33,463 nucleotides of DNA from an uncultured Planctomycetota bacterium (GTDB taxonomy: Bacteria; Planctomycetota; Planctomycetia; Pirellulales; Thermoguttaceae): NCBI GenBank assembly GCA_902770245.1, contig CACXSS010000005.1:1-33463 (forward strand). The letters are read 5' to 3'. Position numbers and translations under genes: made by a program. Positions 6,766-32,121 of this stretch are shown here, piece by piece. Position 1 is the stretch's first letter. Every line of letters starts with the position of its first letter. The notes below the pieces were generated by a model that worked only from the letters and a program-made list of their open reading frames with translations, was not told the origin of the DNA and did no database searches.

Positions 6766-8934
6766 TTATCCCAACCGCAATTCTACGTCGCTTTGCTGAA
6801 TCATCCAGGGATTGTTTTCTATCATGACAACCGTATGGCCGTAGGCGGTCAGACGGCGAAACGTTTCTATGAGTTTGTCCAGTTCAGAATCGTGCAGACC
6901 GGCAGAGGGTTCGTCCAGCAGAAAAAGGGTTTTCTGCTTGTAAATTTTCTGAAGAGCCTTCGCCAAATCCAGCCGGCTTCTCTCTCCGGCAGAAAGCGTC
7001 TTGATCGGCTGTCCCAGTTCCAGACGTTCCAAACCGATGTCAATCAGCGACGTCAAAGGCAACTGAACGCTGCGAATGTTTCGGAAAAACGAAAACGCGT
7101 CTCGAACCGTTAATCGAAGGATTTCCGCCGCATTCAGACCGCGAAATCGAGACTGTAAGTATTCTTTCTGAAAGCGTTCTCCCATACACTCGCTGCAGAC
7201 CATTTCAATTTCCGGCAGATATTCCAGATCAATTGTCAAAACGCCCTCGCCTTTGCATTGCTGGCACCGACCTTTCCCGCTCATCAGACTGAAATCGCCG
7301 GGGGCAAACCCTCTGGCTTGAGATTCCGGCGTCGACGCCAATTCCGCGCGAACGGAATCCCAAATTCCCAGATACGTCGCCACGCAGCCCCGCGGCGGCT
7401 TACGTTCCAGCTTCCGTTCTACGAGAATCACGTCCTCAAACGCGTCCTGACCTGTTACAGTTCGTTTCAAATCATCTGGAACTGGCTTTCCTGCCAGCTG
7501 AGCCAGGAAAACCGATTTGCCAGCCCCAGCGCGTCCTGTAATAGCAGTAATTTTACCAATTATAGGAGCGATATTTAATTCGGAATTAGTAATTCGCAAT
7601 TCGGACGGGCGACTACACTGGGGCGCCTCTACATTACTAATTGCTAATTGCTCATTGCTAATTGCTAATTGAACTACGCAATCCGCCGCTTGAATGAGCG
7701 ACGCGTCGTTGTCGGCAACCACGACTGTATTCCCTCTGTCGCGCAATCGCAGCAACGCGGAAAGCAGCGCAGGGCGATTTTCCGGTGGAACTCCGTCCAT
7801 TGGCTCGTCAAAAACGTAGAGCATATTGACCAAATCGCCTGCAAACATCGCCGCCATCTCCGCCCGGCGAATCTGTCCGCCCGACATCGTTTCCGCCTTG
7901 CGGGACAAAGACATATAGCCAAGACCGGCGGCTTGTAAAGCCCGCGAGATTTTTGAGTTAGGAGTTAGGAGTGAGGAGTGAGGAGTTGATTTTATGAGTT
8001 CCTTCTCGCAACTCTCCAGAATCTGATCTGCTGACAGCTCGTACCATTCCAGCAGATTCTTCCCATCGAGCTGATACGCCAGGATTTTGTCGCGTTCGGA
8101 AGGATCTTTCGGCAATTCCGAAAGATAAAATCGTTCAACCGCGCTGTCGGAAAACTCCTGTCCGCATTGAGGGCACGTTCTGCCCTGCCCTGCGTATCGT
8201 TTAACCGTTCCCTCCGGCGTTTCAATAAACACAACTGCTTTCCCGCCCGATTCCGCAAACGCCAGTTCAAACGACTCCTTCGTTCGGCTGTCGCCGGGCT
8301 TGAACGCCAAACGGTCAGCAAGAACGTACGGAGTTGCGAGTTGCGAGTTGCGAGTTGCGAGTTGAGCTAGCTCGTTCGCGTCGACCATTTCCACTTTAGA
8401 ATCGCGTTCAATCAGCCAGCGGGAGAATCCGCGCTGAGCGTATTCCGATATTGCCGCCGACGGAACAAAAGCAATCTGAGCGCGACAATTCGCATAAAAA
8501 CTTTCGAAGTATTCCGCAGCCGAAGCAGCTCCGCCGGAGGGGACTTCAATACTGCAACGAGGACAAATCGGGACGGCATAGCGGGAAAACGCCAGCGCCA
8601 AGGCGTCGTCCATGCCGCAAAGCTGAGCCAGCGTTTGATTTAAGTCAACTTTTTCTGACGCTGTCGCCGCTGGCGGCAGATTTTCAATCGAGTCCAAATC
8701 CGGACGCTTCCAAAGGCTGAACTTGCCCCGTCGACGCGTTCCGACCGTCTCGATAAATCGCCGCTGACTCTCCGCAAAGAGCGTATTAATAACCAGCGTC
8801 GTCTTCCCCGACCCGGATGGACCGCAGACAACCGTCAGCCCTCCAATCGGAAAATCGACGTCTAAATTATCCAAACAATTCTCCCGAACGCCGCGTAAAC
8901 GTATAAAGGAATCAAAATTTTTACAATTTATCAT
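6766..8934 (-). CDS. Short divergent UvrA-like ABC ATPase
   Basis: This encodes 722 residues, against about 940 in normal UvrA. The UvrA plan is visible in order: Walker A GPSGSGKT (38-45), a zinc-type CPRC (124-127) pairing with CPQC (254-257), signature MSGGQ (about 350), Walker B YVFDEP (about 375), second Walker A GRAGAGKS (467-474), CQQC plus CSEC (557-583), second signature LSAGE (about 647) and LFLLDEPSAGLH. Odd points: the His of the switch motif (IEHN in UvrA) is Asn in the second half (IENN) and missing in the first (VADND), and the protein stops just after the last beta strand. Three low-complexity linkers are heptanucleotide repeats translated in frame. UvrA recognises DNA damage with UvrB; here the shortened N-terminal half may not bind UvrB, so a paralogous role is more likely. 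The start at 8934 has GGAG upstream; an in-frame ATG at 8988 lies above the promoter-like sequence. Confidence 0.82.
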   Translation of the reverse strand: MINCKNFDSFIRLRGVRENCLDNLDVDFPIGGLTVVCGPSGSGKTTLVINTLFAESQRRFIETVGTRRRGKFSLWKRPDLDSIENLPPAATASEKVDLNQTLAQLCGMDDALALAFSRYAVPICPRCSIEVPSGGAASAAEYFESFYANCRAQIAFVPSAAISEYAQRGFSRWLIERDSKVEMVDANELAQLATRNSQLATPYVLADRLAFKPGDSRTKESFELAFAESGGKAVVFIETPEGTVKRYAGQGRTCPQCGQEFSDSAVERFYLSELPKDPSERDKILAYQLDGKNLLEWYELSADQILESCEKELIKSTPHSSLLTPNSKISRALQAAGLGYMSLSRKAETMSGGQIRRAEMAAMFAGDLVNMLYVFDEPMDGVPPENRPALLSALLRLRDRGNTVVVADNDASLIQAADCVVQLAISNEQLAISNVEAPQCSRPSELRITNSELNIAPIIGKITAITGRAGAGKSVFLAQLAGKPVPDDLKRTVTGQDAFEDVILVERKLERKPPRGCVATYLGIWDSVRAELASTPESQARGFAPGDFSLMSGKGRCQQCKGEGVLTIDLEYLPEIEMVCSECMGERFQKEYLQSRFRGLNAAEILRLTVRDAFSFFRNIRSVQLPLTSLIDIGLERLELGQPIKTLSAGERSRLDLAKALQKIYKQKTLFLLDEPSAGLHDSELDKLIETFRRLTAYGHTVVMIENNPWMIQQSDVELRLG
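7575..7671. repeat. Heptanucleotide repeats inside the UvrA-like gene (central linker)
   Basis: Two blocks of 7-nt units lie within the coding sequence: GAATTAG/TAATTCG/CAATTCG (7575-7605) and TTACTAA/TTGCTAA/TTGCTCA/TTGCTAA (7633-7671). Read on the minus strand they give LAISNEQ-LAISN and SELRITNSELN, placed between the first ABC half and the second Walker A. Because 3 x 7 nt equals 21 nt, the protein also repeats every seven residues. Confidence 0.85.
7955..7989. repeat. Heptanucleotide repeats inside the UvrA-like gene (STPHSSLLTPNS linker)
   Basis: Five units (GAGTTAG, GAGTTAG, GAGTGAG, GAGTGAG, GAGTTGA) are translated on the minus strand as STPHSSLLTPNSK, a segment just before the first ABC signature region that has no counterpart in UvrA. 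Confidence 0.85.
8331..8365. repeat. Heptanucleotide repeats inside the UvrA-like gene (LATRNSQLAT linker)
   Basis: Four exact GAGTTGC units and one GAGTTGA are translated on the minus strand as QLATRNSQLAT, within the insertion domain between the two CxxC pairs of the first half. The same unit recurs at 22419-22461 and 9011 in non-coding DNA. Confidence 0.88.
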
Positions 8935-9010: not shown

Positions 9011-9103
9011 GAGTTGCGAGAAGCGAGTTTCGAGAGAATCGTTTTGCGCTAATTGCTAATTACTAATTGCTAATTACTAATTGCTAATTACTAATTGCTA
9101 ATT
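9011..9103. repeat. Heptanucleotide repeat block upstream of the rhomboid gene
   Basis: GAGTTGC/GAGAAGC/GAGTTTC units (9011-9031) are followed by eight alternating GCTAATT and ACTAATT units (9048-9103). The array ends 3 nt before the rhomboid start codon and occupies the place where a ribosome-binding site would be. Confidence 0.9.
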
Positions 9104-9106
9104 ATT

Positions 9107-10153
9107 ATGGGCTATCAAGACCGAGACTACTACCGAGAATCCTACGCTCCGAAACGGGAGCCAATGAAAATCGTTTACAAGATTATTATCCTGAACGTTG
9201 TTTTATGGCTGGCAAACGCCTTTATTACGCCGCCGAAAACATACGACGTCAGAGATCCTGGCACAAACCGCATTTATCGGGTTCAAGATTCCGGAACGAT
9301 TACAGAAACGCTTACTCTTCACCATTCGGACGTTTATAAACCGTGGCTGTATTGGAAGTTTATTACATGCGGATTCGCTCATTCCTCCGAAAGCGCTTGG
9401 CATTTAATCGGCAACATGCTCGGTTTGTTCTTCCTGGGCAGATTCGTCGAAGATCGATACGGACCTAAGCAATTCCTGGGGTTCTATCTAGCCGCCATTG
9501 TTGTCGGAAACGCGTTTTGGATTTTCTGCTCCTGGATGAATGGGACGCTTTCTCCAGACTCGCCCTACTGTCTGCTGGGCGCGTCCGGCGGCGTTACCGC
9601 GACAGTAATCCTGTTTGCCATTACCTACCCGAAAGTTACGCTCGTACTGTTCCCTATCCCAATTCCGATGCCCGCCTGGGTTTTCGGTTTGCTTTTAGTG
9701 GGGTCTGACATGTACGGAGCCATGCACGGAGAAGGCATCATGGGCAACAACGTTGCATACACCGTTCACCTCAGCGCAGCGGCTTTTGCGGCTCTGTATT
9801 ACTTTTTAAACTGGAATTTTACCCGTTTAGGCGCCTTGTGTCTGGGCGATTTCAATACTGCAATGCACTTCAAAGCGTCTCCCAGAATTCGCTATCATGA
9901 AGATGAGCGATATGACGATGGAGAAGACGCTTTCCTGTACAAGCCTCGCAGTCAAAAAAAAGATTTATACAGCGAAGAAGATTCACGTAACTATGCTGAA
10001 AGAGAAAAGGACGCTCGTCTGGAAGCGGAACTGGCAGACGAGGCTGACCGTATTCTGAGAAAAATTTCTCAGACCGGAAGAGAGAGCCTCACCCGCGCAG
10101 AAGAACGCACTCTTCAAACCTACAGCGAACTTTTACAGAGAAAAAAACGTTAA
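9107..10153 (+). CDS. Rhomboid family intramembrane serine protease
   Basis: This encodes 348 residues. It is an integral membrane protease that cleaves transmembrane substrates. Seen in the sequence: a charged cytosolic N-terminus, a first membrane segment at about 24-41, a lumenal loop, WHLIGNM (His99, Asn103) in TM2, GASG with the catalytic Ser at 160, and a catalytic His at 221 in VHLSAAAFAALY. The Ser/His dyad and the oxyanion Asn are present, so it should be active. A hydrophilic tail of about 100 residues rich in Asp/Glu/Arg/Lys follows. ATG 9107 is chosen; a TTG four codons upstream lies inside the repeat array. There is no Shine-Dalgarno site because the heptamer array runs up to the start codon. 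It is divergent from the UvrA-like gene. Confidence 0.92.
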   Translation: MGYQDRDYYRESYAPKREPMKIVYKIIILNVVLWLANAFITPPKTYDVRDPGTNRIYRVQDSGTITETLTLHHSDVYKPWLYWKFITCGFAHSSESAWHLIGNMLGLFFLGRFVEDRYGPKQFLGFYLAAIVVGNAFWIFCSWMNGTLSPDSPYCLLGASGGVTATVILFAITYPKVTLVLFPIPIPMPAWVFGLLLVGSDMYGAMHGEGIMGNNVAYTVHLSAAAFAALYYFLNWNFTRLGALCLGDFNTAMHFKASPRIRYHEDERYDDGEDAFLYKPRSQKKDLYSEEDSRNYAEREKDARLEAELADEADRILRKISQTGRESLTRAEERTLQTYSELLQRKKR

Positions 10154-19095: not shown

Positions 19096-19262
19096 CAGGG
19101 AACAGGGAATAGGGAATAGGGAATAGGGAATGGGGAATAGTGTGTAAGTTGCTAGCTATTAGCGACTAGCCATTAGCTTGTGCATTTGTAGTTCCTAGCG
19201 CTAATATTTAAAGCCTGAAACTAAAATAACCAAGCTAGAAACCAGGAGCTAGAAGCTTAATC
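19096..19262. repeat. Long degenerate heptanucleotide block between the DUF486 and VWA genes
   Basis: The 167 nt can be read almost throughout in 7-nt steps: GAACAGG, GAATAGG (three times), GAATGGG, GAATAGT, then TTGCTAG, CTATTAG, CGACTAG, CCATTAG, and near the end AAGCTAG, AAACCAG, GAGCTAG, AAGCTTA. Phase is kept while the unit sequence drifts, which suggests an old array with younger expansions at its left edge. It fills the divergent intergenic region where promoters would be expected. Confidence 0.82.
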
Positions 19263-22401: not shown

Positions 22402-22418
22402 TATATTTCTCCTTTTAG

Positions 22419-22530
22419 TTACGAGTTACGAGTTGCGAGTTGCGAGTTGCGAGTTGCGAGTGGTAAGTGGTAAGTTGGACGCTCGCTTGCGTACTTCTCA
22501 CTAACCACTAACTACTTACCACTCCTTCTA
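22419..22530. repeat. Opposed heptanucleotide arrays upstream of the alcohol dehydrogenase
   Basis: The left part has repeated ACGAGTT/GCGAGTT units then GTGGTAA units (22419-22477). The right part has the opposite orientation (ACTAACC, ACTAACT, ACTTACC, ACT; about 22497-22522). The GTGGTAAGT and ACTTACCAC segments can pair, so a hairpin may form between the nucleoside-hydrolase-like gene and the dehydrogenase. Confidence 0.8.
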
Positions 22531-26410: not shown

Positions 26411-26476
26411 CAATATCGTTTTCGGTGATTAGTTAATTGATAAATCAATAATCGTTTGTGATTCATTCGAATTTTA

Positions 26477-26572
26477 AACACGAAAAACACAAAATAAGCG
26501 AAAATCACGAAAAGTTTATGTTTATAAAAATAATCCTTTCGTTTGTTTCGTTCTTTTCGTGTGTTTCGTGTT
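26477..26572. repeat. 96-bp imperfect inverted repeat of CACGAAA-type units
   Basis: The left arm (26477-26513) begins AACACGAAAAACAC and the right arm (26536-26572) ends GTGTGTTTCGTGTT. The reverse complement of the right arm aligns with the left arm along its full 37 nt with a few changes. The loop is AT-rich and about 22 nt. It sits between the methyltransferase and the ABC permease and may end the methyltransferase transcript. Confidence 0.75.
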
Positions 26573-29758: not shown

Positions 29759-30292
29759 ATGTCCCGGCGCAAACTAACGCCTGTCGAAAAAGCCCGCAGA
29801 GAAATCTACTCCGTTTCCTGTCTGGATATTCTCAACCATCAAAACTGGATGGCGCTTGCTCTGGAACAGGCACAGCAGGCGGCGCAAGAAGGCGATGTCC
29901 CCGTGGGCGCCGTTATCGTCCGAAACGGAGAGCTTATCGCCGCCGCAGGAAACGCTCGACAACGTCTTCAGCGCCCTACCGCTCACGCTGAAATTTTGGC
30001 AATCGAGCAGGCGTGCGAAAAACTCGGGACGTGGAACCTGTCAGACTGCGCTGTTTATGTAACGCTCGAACCGTGCTGTATGTGCGCCGGGGCGATTCTT
30101 CAAGCCAGAATTCCCTTGGTCGTCTACGGAGCCGACGACCCCAAAGCCGGCGCAGTCAAAACGCTTTTCTCTCTGCTTAACGATTCCAGACTCAACCATC
30201 GCTGCGAAGTCATTTCCGGCATCCTCGATACCGCCTGCGGAAAAGTTCTTACCGATTTCTTTCAGAAAAGAAGAGACGAGAAAAAAGGCTAG
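29759..30292 (+). CDS. tadA: tRNA-specific adenosine deaminase TadA
   Basis: This encodes 177 residues. TadA converts adenosine to inosine at position 34 of tRNA-Arg(ACG), needed to read CGN arginine codons. The zinc deaminase motifs are intact: HAE (76-78, Glu78 as proton shuttle) and PCCMC (105-109; Cys106 and Cys109 as zinc ligands). Typical TadA sequence is seen in NWMALALEQAQQAA, VPVGAVIV, YVTLEPCCMCAGAI and VVYGADDPKAGAV. The protein carries about 28 extra N-terminal residues (basic, SRRKLTPVEKARREI) before the usual start of the fold. No Shine-Dalgarno site precedes ATG 29759, so translation may depend on the short upstream gene 15 nt away, or the true start may be further inside. Confidence 0.92.
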   Translation: MSRRKLTPVEKARREIYSVSCLDILNHQNWMALALEQAQQAAQEGDVPVGAVIVRNGELIAAAGNARQRLQRPTAHAEILAIEQACEKLGTWNLSDCAVYVTLEPCCMCAGAILQARIPLVVYGADDPKAGAVKTLFSLLNDSRLNHRCEVISGILDTACGKVLTDFFQKRRDEKKG

Positions 30293-30347
30293 ATTGTCAA
30301 ACGTGTGTAATCAATTATAGTTAATGATTACCAATACTTTTTATTAT

Positions 30348-30503
30348 GAACGCAGAGACCGCAGACTACTCGCAGAATACGCAGACGGGCTGGGAATGTG
30401 GCGACGACGCCAACTTCGTTGTCTACGCCACGATTCCCGCCCGATATGACACATGGACGCTTGCTTCTGCGCTCTCTGTGAGGAGTCCGCGTACTCTGCG
30501 TTC
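30348..30503. repeat. 156-bp near-palindromic element between tadA and the ComEA-like gene
   Basis: Outer arms of 40 nt (30348-30387 and 30464-30503) begin GAACGCAGAG and end CTCTGCGTTC, pairing at most positions. Inside them a second pair CGGGCTGGGAATGTGGCG (30386-30403) and CGCCACGATTCCCGCCCG (30426-30443) also pairs with small offsets. A 20-nt unpaired stretch (30444-30463) is the only asymmetry. It lies between convergent genes. Confidence 0.75.
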
Positions 30504-30541
30504 TTTCTAACTGTCATACAGAAATAATTAGAGTACACCCG

Positions 30542-31066
30542 CTACCGTTCCGCTCTAGCTGACGCGTCCGGCATCGGAACCAAATACGGTCGCATGACGT
30601 CGAGCGTCTTTGGACCGATTCCTTCCACCTTGAGCAGTTCGTTTTCGTCGGCAAAGGCGCCGCCGAGTTCATTTCTAACCCGGATAATTTCTCGAGCCTT
30701 CTGCTCGCCGATGCCGGGAATGAGCGCAAACTCCGTCCAAGGCGCGGAATTGACGTCAATTTGCAGCGGCGTTTCGACGTACGGCATTCTGTCGATTTCA
30801 ATGACCTGATGAGTTACCAGCTCGTTCCAGTACATGTACCCGCCCAGCGCCAGCATGGCAATCGTACAGCAAACCGCCAGCGTGATCTGATCCCGATAGC
30901 GCAAAATGCCTCGCCATCGGTCTTCGACCTCGTAAATCGGCTCGCGCGCGTGCAGAGTCGGCAGGGTTTCAGAAGCGCGATGAGCAATCGCCGTCTCTGA
31001 TTTCGTGAGTTTTCGGTCAACGCTCGGCGCCGTTTCGACAGAATTTTCTCTTTGTTCACTGTTCAT
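30542..31066 (-). CDS. ComEA-like membrane-anchored helix-hairpin-helix protein
   Basis: This encodes 174 residues. A polar N-terminus of about 58 residues is followed by a membrane helix (about 61-80) and a helix-hairpin-helix domain (about 104-163) with the ComEA pattern: IDVNSAPWTEFALIPGIGEQKAREII and VEGIGPKTLDVMRPYL. ComEA binds incoming DNA in natural transformation, and similar anchored HhH proteins are common in bacteria without proven competence. The extracytoplasmic placement of the DNA-binding part agrees with a DNA uptake role, but no other com genes are in view. A purine-rich GGCGGAAG precedes the start. It is divergent from nadC. Confidence 0.85.
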   Translation of the reverse strand: MNSEQRENSVETAPSVDRKLTKSETAIAHRASETLPTLHAREPIYEVEDRWRGILRYRDQITLAVCCTIAMLALGGYMYWNELVTHQVIEIDRMPYVETPLQIDVNSAPWTEFALIPGIGEQKAREIIRVRNELGGAFADENELLKVEGIGPKTLDVMRPYLVPMPDASARAER

Positions 31067-31146: not shown

Positions 31147-32094
31147 ATGAACAAACCGGACTTTCATCAAACCCGTTGGGACGCGGAAGTCGAACACGAT
31201 TTTCGCATCCTGCTTGACCTGGCAATCCAGGAAGACGTTCGCGGCAGCGTCGACATCACCACAGACGCAGTCGTTCCGAAAACGGCGCGCGGCAAAGTTG
31301 TGCTGTCTTCTCGAGAAGAAGGCGTTTTAGCCGGCATGGCTTTGGTTCCCATTATTATGGAATACGCGCCGGACGTCAAATGGACGCCTTTCATGAACGA
31401 CTCCGACCCGCTCTACCCCGGCTGTAAAATCGGGTCGCTGGAAGGAAACGCCAGACAGATTCTGCATATCGAACGGCCGCTGCTCAACTTTATGAGCCGT
31501 TTGTGCGGAATCGCTTCTCTGACGCATTTTTACGTCGAATGGGTTGACCTGATCGAAGGGAAAAAGCCGGGCATTTACGACACCCGCAAAACAACCCCCG
31601 GATGGCGTCTGCTGGAAAAGTACGCTATTCAATGCGGCGGCGGAAAGAACCATCGCTGCGGGCTGTACGATGCAATTCTCATTAAAGACAACCACCTCGC
31701 CCTGGCGTGTCCGGAACTCAAGCACGACTTGGACGAAGAGACGCTTTTCAATCCGGCAGAAGCCATCGCGCGAGCGAAAAAGTACATCGCCGACAAGAAC
31801 ATGCCCGACACGCTCATCGAGCTGGAAGTCGATTCTCTGGAACAACTTAAGATCGCGCTGCCGCTCAAGCCGGACATTGTTCTGCTAGACAACATGCCTC
31901 CCGCGATTTTACGTCAAGCGGTTGCCATGCGCGACGAGATGGCTCCGGAAGTCGAACTGGAAGCCTCCGGCGGCGTCAACCTCAAGACGATCGGAAAGAT
32001 TGCCGCGACGGGCGTCGAACGCATCAGCGTCGGCTCACTTACCCACGCCGCCAGCTCGCTCGACATCGGCTTGGACTGGGAACCAATCAATTAG
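31147..32094 (+). CDS. nadC: Nicotinate-nucleotide diphosphorylase (quinolinate phosphoribosyltransferase)
   Basis: This encodes 315 residues. NadC joins quinolinate and PRPP to make nicotinate mononucleotide with CO2 release, in de novo NAD synthesis. Typical landmarks: EDVRGSVDITTDAVVP, ERPLLNFMSRLCGIASLT, YDTRKTTPGWRLLEKYAIQCGGGKNHR (tract of substrate-binding Arg/Lys residues), AILIKDNH, IELEVDSLEQ, IVLLDNMPP and LEASGGVNLKTIGKIAATGVERISVGSLTH. All expected active-site residues appear intact. The usual partners nadA and nadB are not in the window. The start ATG 31147 is chosen over a TTG 18 nt upstream. Its stop codon lies inside a heptamer repeat array. Confidence 0.95.
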   Translation: MNKPDFHQTRWDAEVEHDFRILLDLAIQEDVRGSVDITTDAVVPKTARGKVVLSSREEGVLAGMALVPIIMEYAPDVKWTPFMNDSDPLYPGCKIGSLEGNARQILHIERPLLNFMSRLCGIASLTHFYVEWVDLIEGKKPGIYDTRKTTPGWRLLEKYAIQCGGGKNHRCGLYDAILIKDNHLALACPELKHDLDEETLFNPAEAIARAKKYIADKNMPDTLIELEVDSLEQLKIALPLKPDIVLLDNMPPAILRQAVAMRDEMAPEVELEASGGVNLKTIGKIAATGVERISVGSLTHAASSLDIGLDWEPIN

Positions 32095-32121
32095 CAATTT
32101 GTAATTAGCAATTAGCAATTA
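32091..32121. repeat. Heptanucleotide array overlapping the nadC stop codon
   Basis: The units TTAGCAA, TTTGTAA, TTAGCAA, TTAGCAA, TTAC run in register, and the TAG stop of nadC (32092-32094) is part of the first unit. This shows insertion or growth of the array right at a gene boundary. Confidence 0.85.

Follow-up and report, generated by a model that had tools for sequence, protein, structure and literature searches.

We report here on a palindrome of 156 bp at positions 30348-30503 of a 33,463-nucleotide stretch of DNA from an uncultured bacterium of the Planctomycetota (family Thermoguttaceae; assembly GCA_902770245.1, contig CACXSS010000005.1), the whole of which we refer to as the window. 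With a probability of roughly 0.55, we interpret this palindrome as a gene-less and internally deleted derivative, resembling a miniature inverted-repeat transposable element (MITE), of a small cassette built around a gene of the GxxExxY family, and its two arms as putative DNA sites. The arms are inverted arrays of short units that face inward. The window copy has no open reading frame (ORF), so that the inverted arrays are present and the GxxExxY gene between them is absent; we file it as a cassette derivative because the same arms enclose such a gene at two other loci of this genome, L008 and L020 (L numbers denote loci, and G numbers genomes, throughout).

At these two loci, intact ORFs of 136 and 139 amino acids, respectively, lie between two hairpins, which we call hairpin 1 and hairpin 2. 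Both are GxxExxY genes (TIGR04256, E of 5e-37 and 3e-37; PF13366, E of about 2e-34). Comparison of the two genes gives a nonsynonymous divergence, dN, of 0.054 against a synonymous divergence, dS, of 0.778, and thus indicates that the protein has been under purifying selection. The genome contains four GxxExxY genes in total. Inverted unit arms enclose every one of them, and at two the units have a different sequence.

The element is dispersed over the genome, with copies in at least 44 places. This number comprises 40 places that match the left half of the element, the window included, together with four copies (L065, L068, L071 and L074) found via their outer ends. All are counted by the left half and several copies end at contig ends; two contig-end fragments (L066 and L067) are possibly the other halves of counted copies. 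An earlier note on this DNA, made from the letters alone, had suggested a search for other copies and held that a single-copy element would speak against its proposals; that objection falls away. Comparison among the copies yields the plan of a full element: outer end, arm, hairpin 1, AT-rich spacer, hairpin 2, arm, outer end. The size between arm ends is mostly 156-330 bp, and 715 and 731 bp in the two coding copies. In three copies (L006, L009 and L025) the loop of hairpin 2 is enlarged by further sequence (GACAGGGTCGGTTCC...GCGCGGCTTCGCGCC or alike). Measured against the full plan, the window copy has no spacer and is missing hairpin 2's left half, which accounts for what the earlier note described as a 20-nt bulge. 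A loss of the same kind is seen at one insertion found in two species, which is whole in G002 (L046) and deleted between the two hairpins in the window's own genome (L030). The parts of the window element, followed by its neighbouring genes, are listed below.

About 30303-30540, no strand assigned: whole element (238 bp), with limits taken from comparison with other copies and weak end scores of 14 and 13.
30303-30347, + strand: left outer end, B-type and degenerate, from alignment of the flank to the end consensus (score 14).
30348-30385, + strand: left arm of four GCAGA-type units (GAACGCAGAGACCGCAGACTACTCGCAGAATACGCAGA), from the fold and a repeat search; the same arm stands around the GxxExxY ORF in L008 and L020.
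30386-30443, + strand: hairpin 1 (the inner stem), from the fold and comparison of copies.
30444-30464, + strand: deletion junction with what is left of hairpin 2 (the '20-nt bulge'), from comparison with full copies.
30465-30503, - strand: right arm, an inverted unit array, from the fold and the repeat search.
30504-30540, - strand: right outer end, A-type and degenerate, reading GGGTGTACTC from outside, from alignment of the flank (score 13).
29759-30292, + strand: neighbouring gene for a TadA-like deaminase (PF14437, PF00383), convergent with the helix-hairpin-helix gene.
30542-31066, - strand: neighbouring gene for a helix-hairpin-helix protein (PF12836), convergent with the deaminase gene.

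The coordinates and the anatomy given in the earlier note, that is, a nested near-palindrome of 156 bp with inverted arms, an inner stem and one bulge, located between convergent genes, were accurate. The same note proposed that the fold be compared with shuffled sequence. Positions 30348-30503 fold, as RNA, into one hairpin of -82.5 kcal/mol, compared with a mean of -48.2 (standard deviation 4.1) among shuffles (z of -8.4), and none of 200 shuffles folds as stably. When the window is scanned in overlapping stretches of 156 nt (step 26), the greatest stability falls at 30343, and the repeat search recovers a 45-nt inverted pair at 30341-30385 and 30466-30510 that is 76% complementary. Roughly 20 nt, at 30446-30464, remain unpaired in the fold.

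A fold of such stability raises the question of whether the hairpin acts as an RNA, either as a bidirectional terminator or as a stabiliser of transcript ends between the convergent genes; the orthologous site in two congeners, G001 and G002, also holds another long hairpin of unit arrays. Nevertheless, we regard this explanation as very improbable. The hairpin is not followed by a T tract, and it contains one weak, inner terminator-like hit, compared with a mean of 0.7 in shuffles, so we reject an intrinsic terminator. Rfam, searched at gathering thresholds, gives no match in the window. Among 68 loci of gene-bearing relatives with three clean units per arm, paired units agree no better than unpaired ones (0.586 versus 0.532, p = 0.22). 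The spacing of units is mirrored in 128 of 136 cases versus 82 of 136, a comparison that a gap-averse aligner favours. Considering the transcript in the sense of the gene, transitions that keep a G.U pair are no commoner than those that break the pair (78:71 across phyla, 67:85 among relatives). With neither an Rfam match, nor co-variation of paired units, nor an excess of G.U over A.C in the cassette arms, a structured RNA is not supported either, and the arms fit better with sites in double-stranded DNA than with a maintained RNA stem. Of the three readings offered by the earlier note, then, the terminator and the structured RNA are set aside and the non-autonomous mobile element is retained; the last is supported by the copy number, by orthologous sites that lack the element, by common ends and by 8-bp direct repeats at some copies.

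The arrangement of a GxxExxY gene between inverted unit arms extends well beyond this genome. We count a locus as passing if an inverted pair with a score of at least 30 lies no more than 300 nt from the gene. In a cross-phylum sample, consisting of the best 80 of 581 loci for a query of one subclade and reduced to 75 because five were too short, 59 of 75 GxxExxY loci have such a pair, compared with 4 of 884 shifted windows of the same loci. Mariprofundus sp. EBB-1, Thioalkalivibrio sp. ALJ16 and Stieleria tagensis are among the named records of this sample. Among relatives, 79 of 93 loci pass, as against 0 of 213 shifted windows, although these 93 are not fully independent: L254 and L106 are one locus, and L114 and L238 are identical. 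Both L254 and L107, the latter of which passes via an inverted partial copy of the gene, were excluded from the tests of arm against protein similarity, of G.U pairs and of direct repeats. The passing records include members of the Pseudomonadota, Chloroflexota, Acidobacteriota, Bacteroidota, Planctomycetota and Verrucomicrobiota, a cyanobacterium (L134) and an archaeon of the Methanosarcinales (L186); a locus from Methanothrix (L126) fails the arm score. A typical arm, that of L115, reads TTCACCACAGAGACACAGAGACACAGAG. Several GxxExxY ORFs (L115, L129 and others) have the predicted N-terminus HRDTETQR or alike, and annotated starts may lie too far upstream, because the arm overlaps the chosen start.

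Of the 71 loci with high scores, 67 have units that recur with a period of 8-10 nt, and by eye the unit sequences are specific to subclades of the protein. For example, CACAGAG accompanies proteins of the GPGLLESAYE type and CACAGATGAA accompanies GAGFLEKVYENALAHELR, while further subclades have ACAGGATT, CACGAAA, AACAGAAGGAAACGAAG and others. Over 77 loci, the similarity of arms increases with protein identity between genomes (rho = 0.265), a correlation reached by none of 500 free permutations and none of 500 permutations within genomes. Moreover, the arms of a locus resemble those of its nearest protein relative more than those of the other loci in its genome in 49 of 59 cases. Part of this co-variation comes from common descent, the cassette being compact.

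Arms of this kind also occur without the gene. A pattern of AACC followed by three units is found in 24 of 60 relative genomes, up to 46 times per genome, and its reversed control is never found. Among the 150 arms listed, neighbours at most 600 nt apart form at least 19 facing pairs and at least four pairs in the same direction (all in G046), with no diverging pairs. Three facing pairs (G053:C141, G040:C273 and G049:C25) enclose a GxxExxY gene or its remains; the starts of the remaining 16 listed lie 42-351 nt apart, with no TIGR04256 match there. Altogether 40 of the 60 relative genomes, and many phyla, have GxxExxY genes, and such a gene is present in 23 of the 24 genomes with the arm pattern versus 17 of the 36 without it (p = 6e-5). 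One or a few coding copies and many gene-less derivatives look like the pairs formed by transposons and their MITEs.

As for the protein, residues E32, Y35, D72, E82, K84 and Q99 are invariant in 27 aligned sequences drawn from 34 loci. An AlphaFold2 model of one relative (predicted local distance difference test score, pLDDT, of 93.4) has as its best VIA-align match 4ic1_G (SSO0001), which we take to be a Cas4 protein, with a Z of 9.3 and a root-mean-square deviation of 4.7 A over 104 residues. Below it, at Z of about 6-8, a range about which the tool cautions, come restriction enzymes, Hjc resolvases and LHK exonuclease. Foldseek with the same model finds nothing at E <= 0.001, and a sequence search of solved structures returns one match, which is insignificant. 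The protein is predicted, from the model and the invariant residues, to have the D...ExK site and the fold of the PD-(D/E)XK superfamily. We also considered whether the genes are cargo of plasmids or phages, and rejected this: a search with a single GxxExxY sequence hit 8 of 72,556 plasmid records and none of 50,697 phage records.

A separate observation concerns the TIGR02436 genes of the relatives (L255-L284), which belong to what is presumably the four-helix-bundle or 23S intervening-sequence protein (IVP) family. Inverted heptamer arrays are present at 27 of 30 such loci and at 0 of 216 controls, and their period is 7 in 24 of 26.

The mechanism that we propose is as follows. The core cassette would consist of two inverted arms, each of three or four CGCAGA/CACAGAG-type units, around the GxxExxY gene in those copies that bear one. 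The predicted nuclease would recognise the unit arrays as double-stranded DNA sites, and would either join the two ends or cut at them. Its own cassette might thereby be spread, or be homogenised through repair of the break, and gene-less copies such as that of the window could be spread or homogenised in trans; the window copy itself is probably inert. We would extend this idea, tentatively and with rather more doubt than belief, to GxxExxY genes at large: they may be the enzymes of an undescribed kind of minimal mobile element that crosses phyla, in which one small PD-(D/E)XK nuclease would recognise inverted arrays of its own unit, the unit code and the protein co-evolve and gene-less copies spread in trans, with the TIGR02436 genes and their heptamer arms as a parallel class.

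Beyond the arms, many copies carry outer ends, which are either A-type (GGGTGCGCTCAAATTTTGGTTGCACG...) or B-type (GGGTGCGATAAATTTGGGGTTGCG...). Both types read GGGTGCG inward, and thus form terminal inverted repeats such as MITEs possess, degenerate in the window copy; the family is, apart from the two coding copies, likewise short, multicopy and without coding capacity. By eye, exact direct repeats of 8 bp can be seen at L015 (GACTAATA), L027 (CATTCCTT) and L036 (CTAACTCC), and repeats that match at 7 of 8 positions at L033, L065 and L069. In a scripted test of the 23 copies with at least one recognisable end, three have exact 8-mers and seven match at 7 of 8 or better, versus 1% and 5%, respectively, in a control with re-paired flanks. 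Over all 36 scripted copies the figures are 8% and 25%, versus 0.5% and 5% in the control; L027, whose boundary was misplaced, is absent from the scripted count. The earlier note had proposed to look for target-site duplications; 8-bp direct repeats exceed the control at a minority of copies, and none is seen at the window copy.

The position of these repeats bears on a competing explanation. They lie outside the outer ends, not outside the arms, and the same GGGTGCG ends bound other palindromic cargo, chiefly in the congener G003. The element might therefore be an ordinary MITE of another transposon, one with ends GGGTGCG... and an 8-bp target duplication, in which the GCAGA/GxxExxY module is a passenger that plays no part in movement. 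We consider this unlikely. No transposase that shares the outer ends was recognised among the loci fetched by those ends, and an autonomous transposon with the same ends is not supported by these loci, which show short cargo or unpaired ends; one pair of ends in G003 (L295), spanning 2.4 kb, holds a 388-amino-acid ORF that was not compared with a family library. L036, with one of the three exact repeats, adjoins a heptamer-like array that could yield direct repeats by itself. Furthermore, an ordinary MITE leaves unexplained why, across many phyla where these outer ends are lacking, GxxExxY genes have arms of the same kind, and at insertions shared between species the arms outlast the outer ends, as described below. 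The cassette reading can accommodate the outer ends: because they and their 8-bp repeats surround the cassette, a separate, second transposase might perform the final insertion in this genus.

At L069, L076 and L295-L304 the outer ends enclose GTAG-like palindromes (GTAGCCCCCAGATTTATCTGGGGG), which are abundant in G003 and often lie near contig ends. This cargo may be of REP/RAYT or IS200/IS605 origin (REP, repetitive extragenic palindrome; RAYT, REP-associated tyrosine transposase), and Y1_Tnp genes do exist in the window's genome.

At the DNA level, the element is present in all four genomes of the window's genus, counting the window's genome, and in none of 33 genomes from other genera of the same taxonomic family; two genomes of the order have short, weak matches of 29 and 37 nt. 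Among the 60 relatives it is thus confined to the one genus, and within the genus its sites differ. At the window site, G001 and G002 lack the GCAGA element and each has a different palindrome of heptamer-like arrays, and in G003 a contig ends inside the intergenic region, with other sequence there. The gene-bearing element at the L020 locus is shared with G002, whose copy (L114) is about 90 nt longer in the loop of hairpin 2; in G001 and G003 the same site is just 63 and 80 nt long, with short heptamer arrays. These differences imply that presence varies by species, and that unit-array repeats take the same sites in turn.

Four insertions are each found in two species (L057/L031, L047/L052, L046/L030 and L114/L020), and here the arms are identical at 299 of 304 positions, as compared with 1784 of 1913 in nearby flanks (p = 1.4e-4) and 350 of 395 in the outer ends (p = 1.6e-7). 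A further shared insertion, L053/L064, was excluded from these sums as it is identical over most of the stretch, flanks included. The earlier note would have given up its proposals had there been no conservation in relatives; instead, the arms are better conserved than their flanks. Such conservation, in gene-less insertions too, together with the dispersal of arms up to 46 times in a genome, would suit protein-binding sites that are kept for the host, bound by the GxxExxY protein or another within a regulatory or nucleoid-type network, and no longer selfish. We think this improbable, however, because the presence of the element differs between congeners, unrelated heptamer arrays replace gene-bearing loci, and homogenisation among copies would produce the same conservation. 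Under the cassette reading, the conservation of arms would reflect either selection even in the absence of the gene or homogenisation between copies, perhaps through nuclease-induced repair.

Several observations weigh against the cassette reading. With regard to movement, the gene-bearing L020 has no clean target duplication, gene-bearing cassettes elsewhere give no clear signal of direct repeats immediately beyond their arms, and the 8-bp repeats belong to outer ends that serve other cargo too. Likewise, the cores of window-like copies remain alike while their outer ends fade (as in L002 and L003), which simple transposition of the whole unit does not explain. With regard to the gene, the required score is missed by 16 of the 75 loci in the cross-phylum sample and by 14 of the 93 among relatives, and three others pass for reasons foreign to the cassette, L130 and L165 via another kind of inverted repeat and L107 via the partial gene copy. 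G003 has the element and lacks a GxxExxY gene, and genomes with several such genes mostly hold different subclades and not recent duplicates. Finally, the action of the protein on the arms is something that we infer.

It is useful to compare the element with systems already described. It is like a MITE in being short, non-coding and multicopy, with inverted ends and, at some copies, 8-bp direct repeats. It is unlike one in that its parent is no recognised transposase gene, its inner arms are arrays of short units, and its gene-bearing copies carry a gene of PD-(D/E)XK type. The GxxExxY/PDDEXK_3 entries (TIGR04256, PF13366) apply insofar as two copies hold such a gene between identical arms; the entries cover the protein alone, whereas the flanking unit arrays are described here. 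RAYTs are Y1 HUH enzymes, and nine Y1_Tnp matches, at most candidate RAYTs, occur in the genome. In the available text of PMC3733652, REPs are palindromes that measure 20-40 bp and bear a tag, GTAG or CGTC, and the REP/REPIN-RAYT system (REPIN, REP doublet forming a hairpin) resembles ours in its dispersed intergenic palindromes, which are thought to be moved in trans; it differs from our element of about 156-250 bp with unit arrays. A test for the REP tag was negative, as the window arms terminate in GAACGCAG and the palindrome measures 156 bp. A REP/RAYT or IS200/IS605 type for the element is made unlikely by its size, by its ends and by the 8-bp repeats at some copies.

The intervening sequences of 23S rRNA with their S23p ORF are likewise selfish-looking hairpins with inverted ends and room for one small ORF. 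According to the accessible part of PMC4990558, they lie inside 23S rRNA and are cut out by RNase III, whereas the window element is intergenic and without an ORF, and the arms of its kind show no RNA constraint. Inverted pairs of intergenic heptamers have been noted in Xanthomonas (PMC4679880; PMC4692102), and they share with our arms the tandem short units between genes; their units are of 7 nt and the portions of these papers at hand name no enclosed gene family, whereas GxxExxY arm units are mostly 8-10 nt apart. A literature search that covered few subscription papers found no report linking GxxExxY genes to unit-array arms; searching for the exact arm string gave unrelated papers, and searching for the unit together with inverted repeats in bacterial intergenic regions gave none.

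These results connect a little-studied protein family with one class of repeats that are dispersed in genomes. The way in which units vary with the protein would amount to a natural recognition code that might be read out, and, if the protein moves the arms, the cassette would be a very small mobile element in which variation of recognition is built in. Similarly, the link between TIGR02436 and heptamers would offer a starting point for the heptamer repeats, whose origin is left open in the available text of the papers cited above.

The window holds further repeats of both kinds. At 26476-26569, inverted CACGAAA-type units with 9-nt spacing form another palindrome of the GxxExxY kind, again without a gene, with a fold of -31.3 kcal/mol. 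Tandem heptamer arrays, like those on either side of TIGR02436 genes in the relatives, are found at 7632-7671, 7955-7987, 8331-8364, 9048-9114, 19097-19140, 22417-22477 and 32088-32121, and by eye the arrays run on into palindromes at 19097-19250 and 22410-22520.
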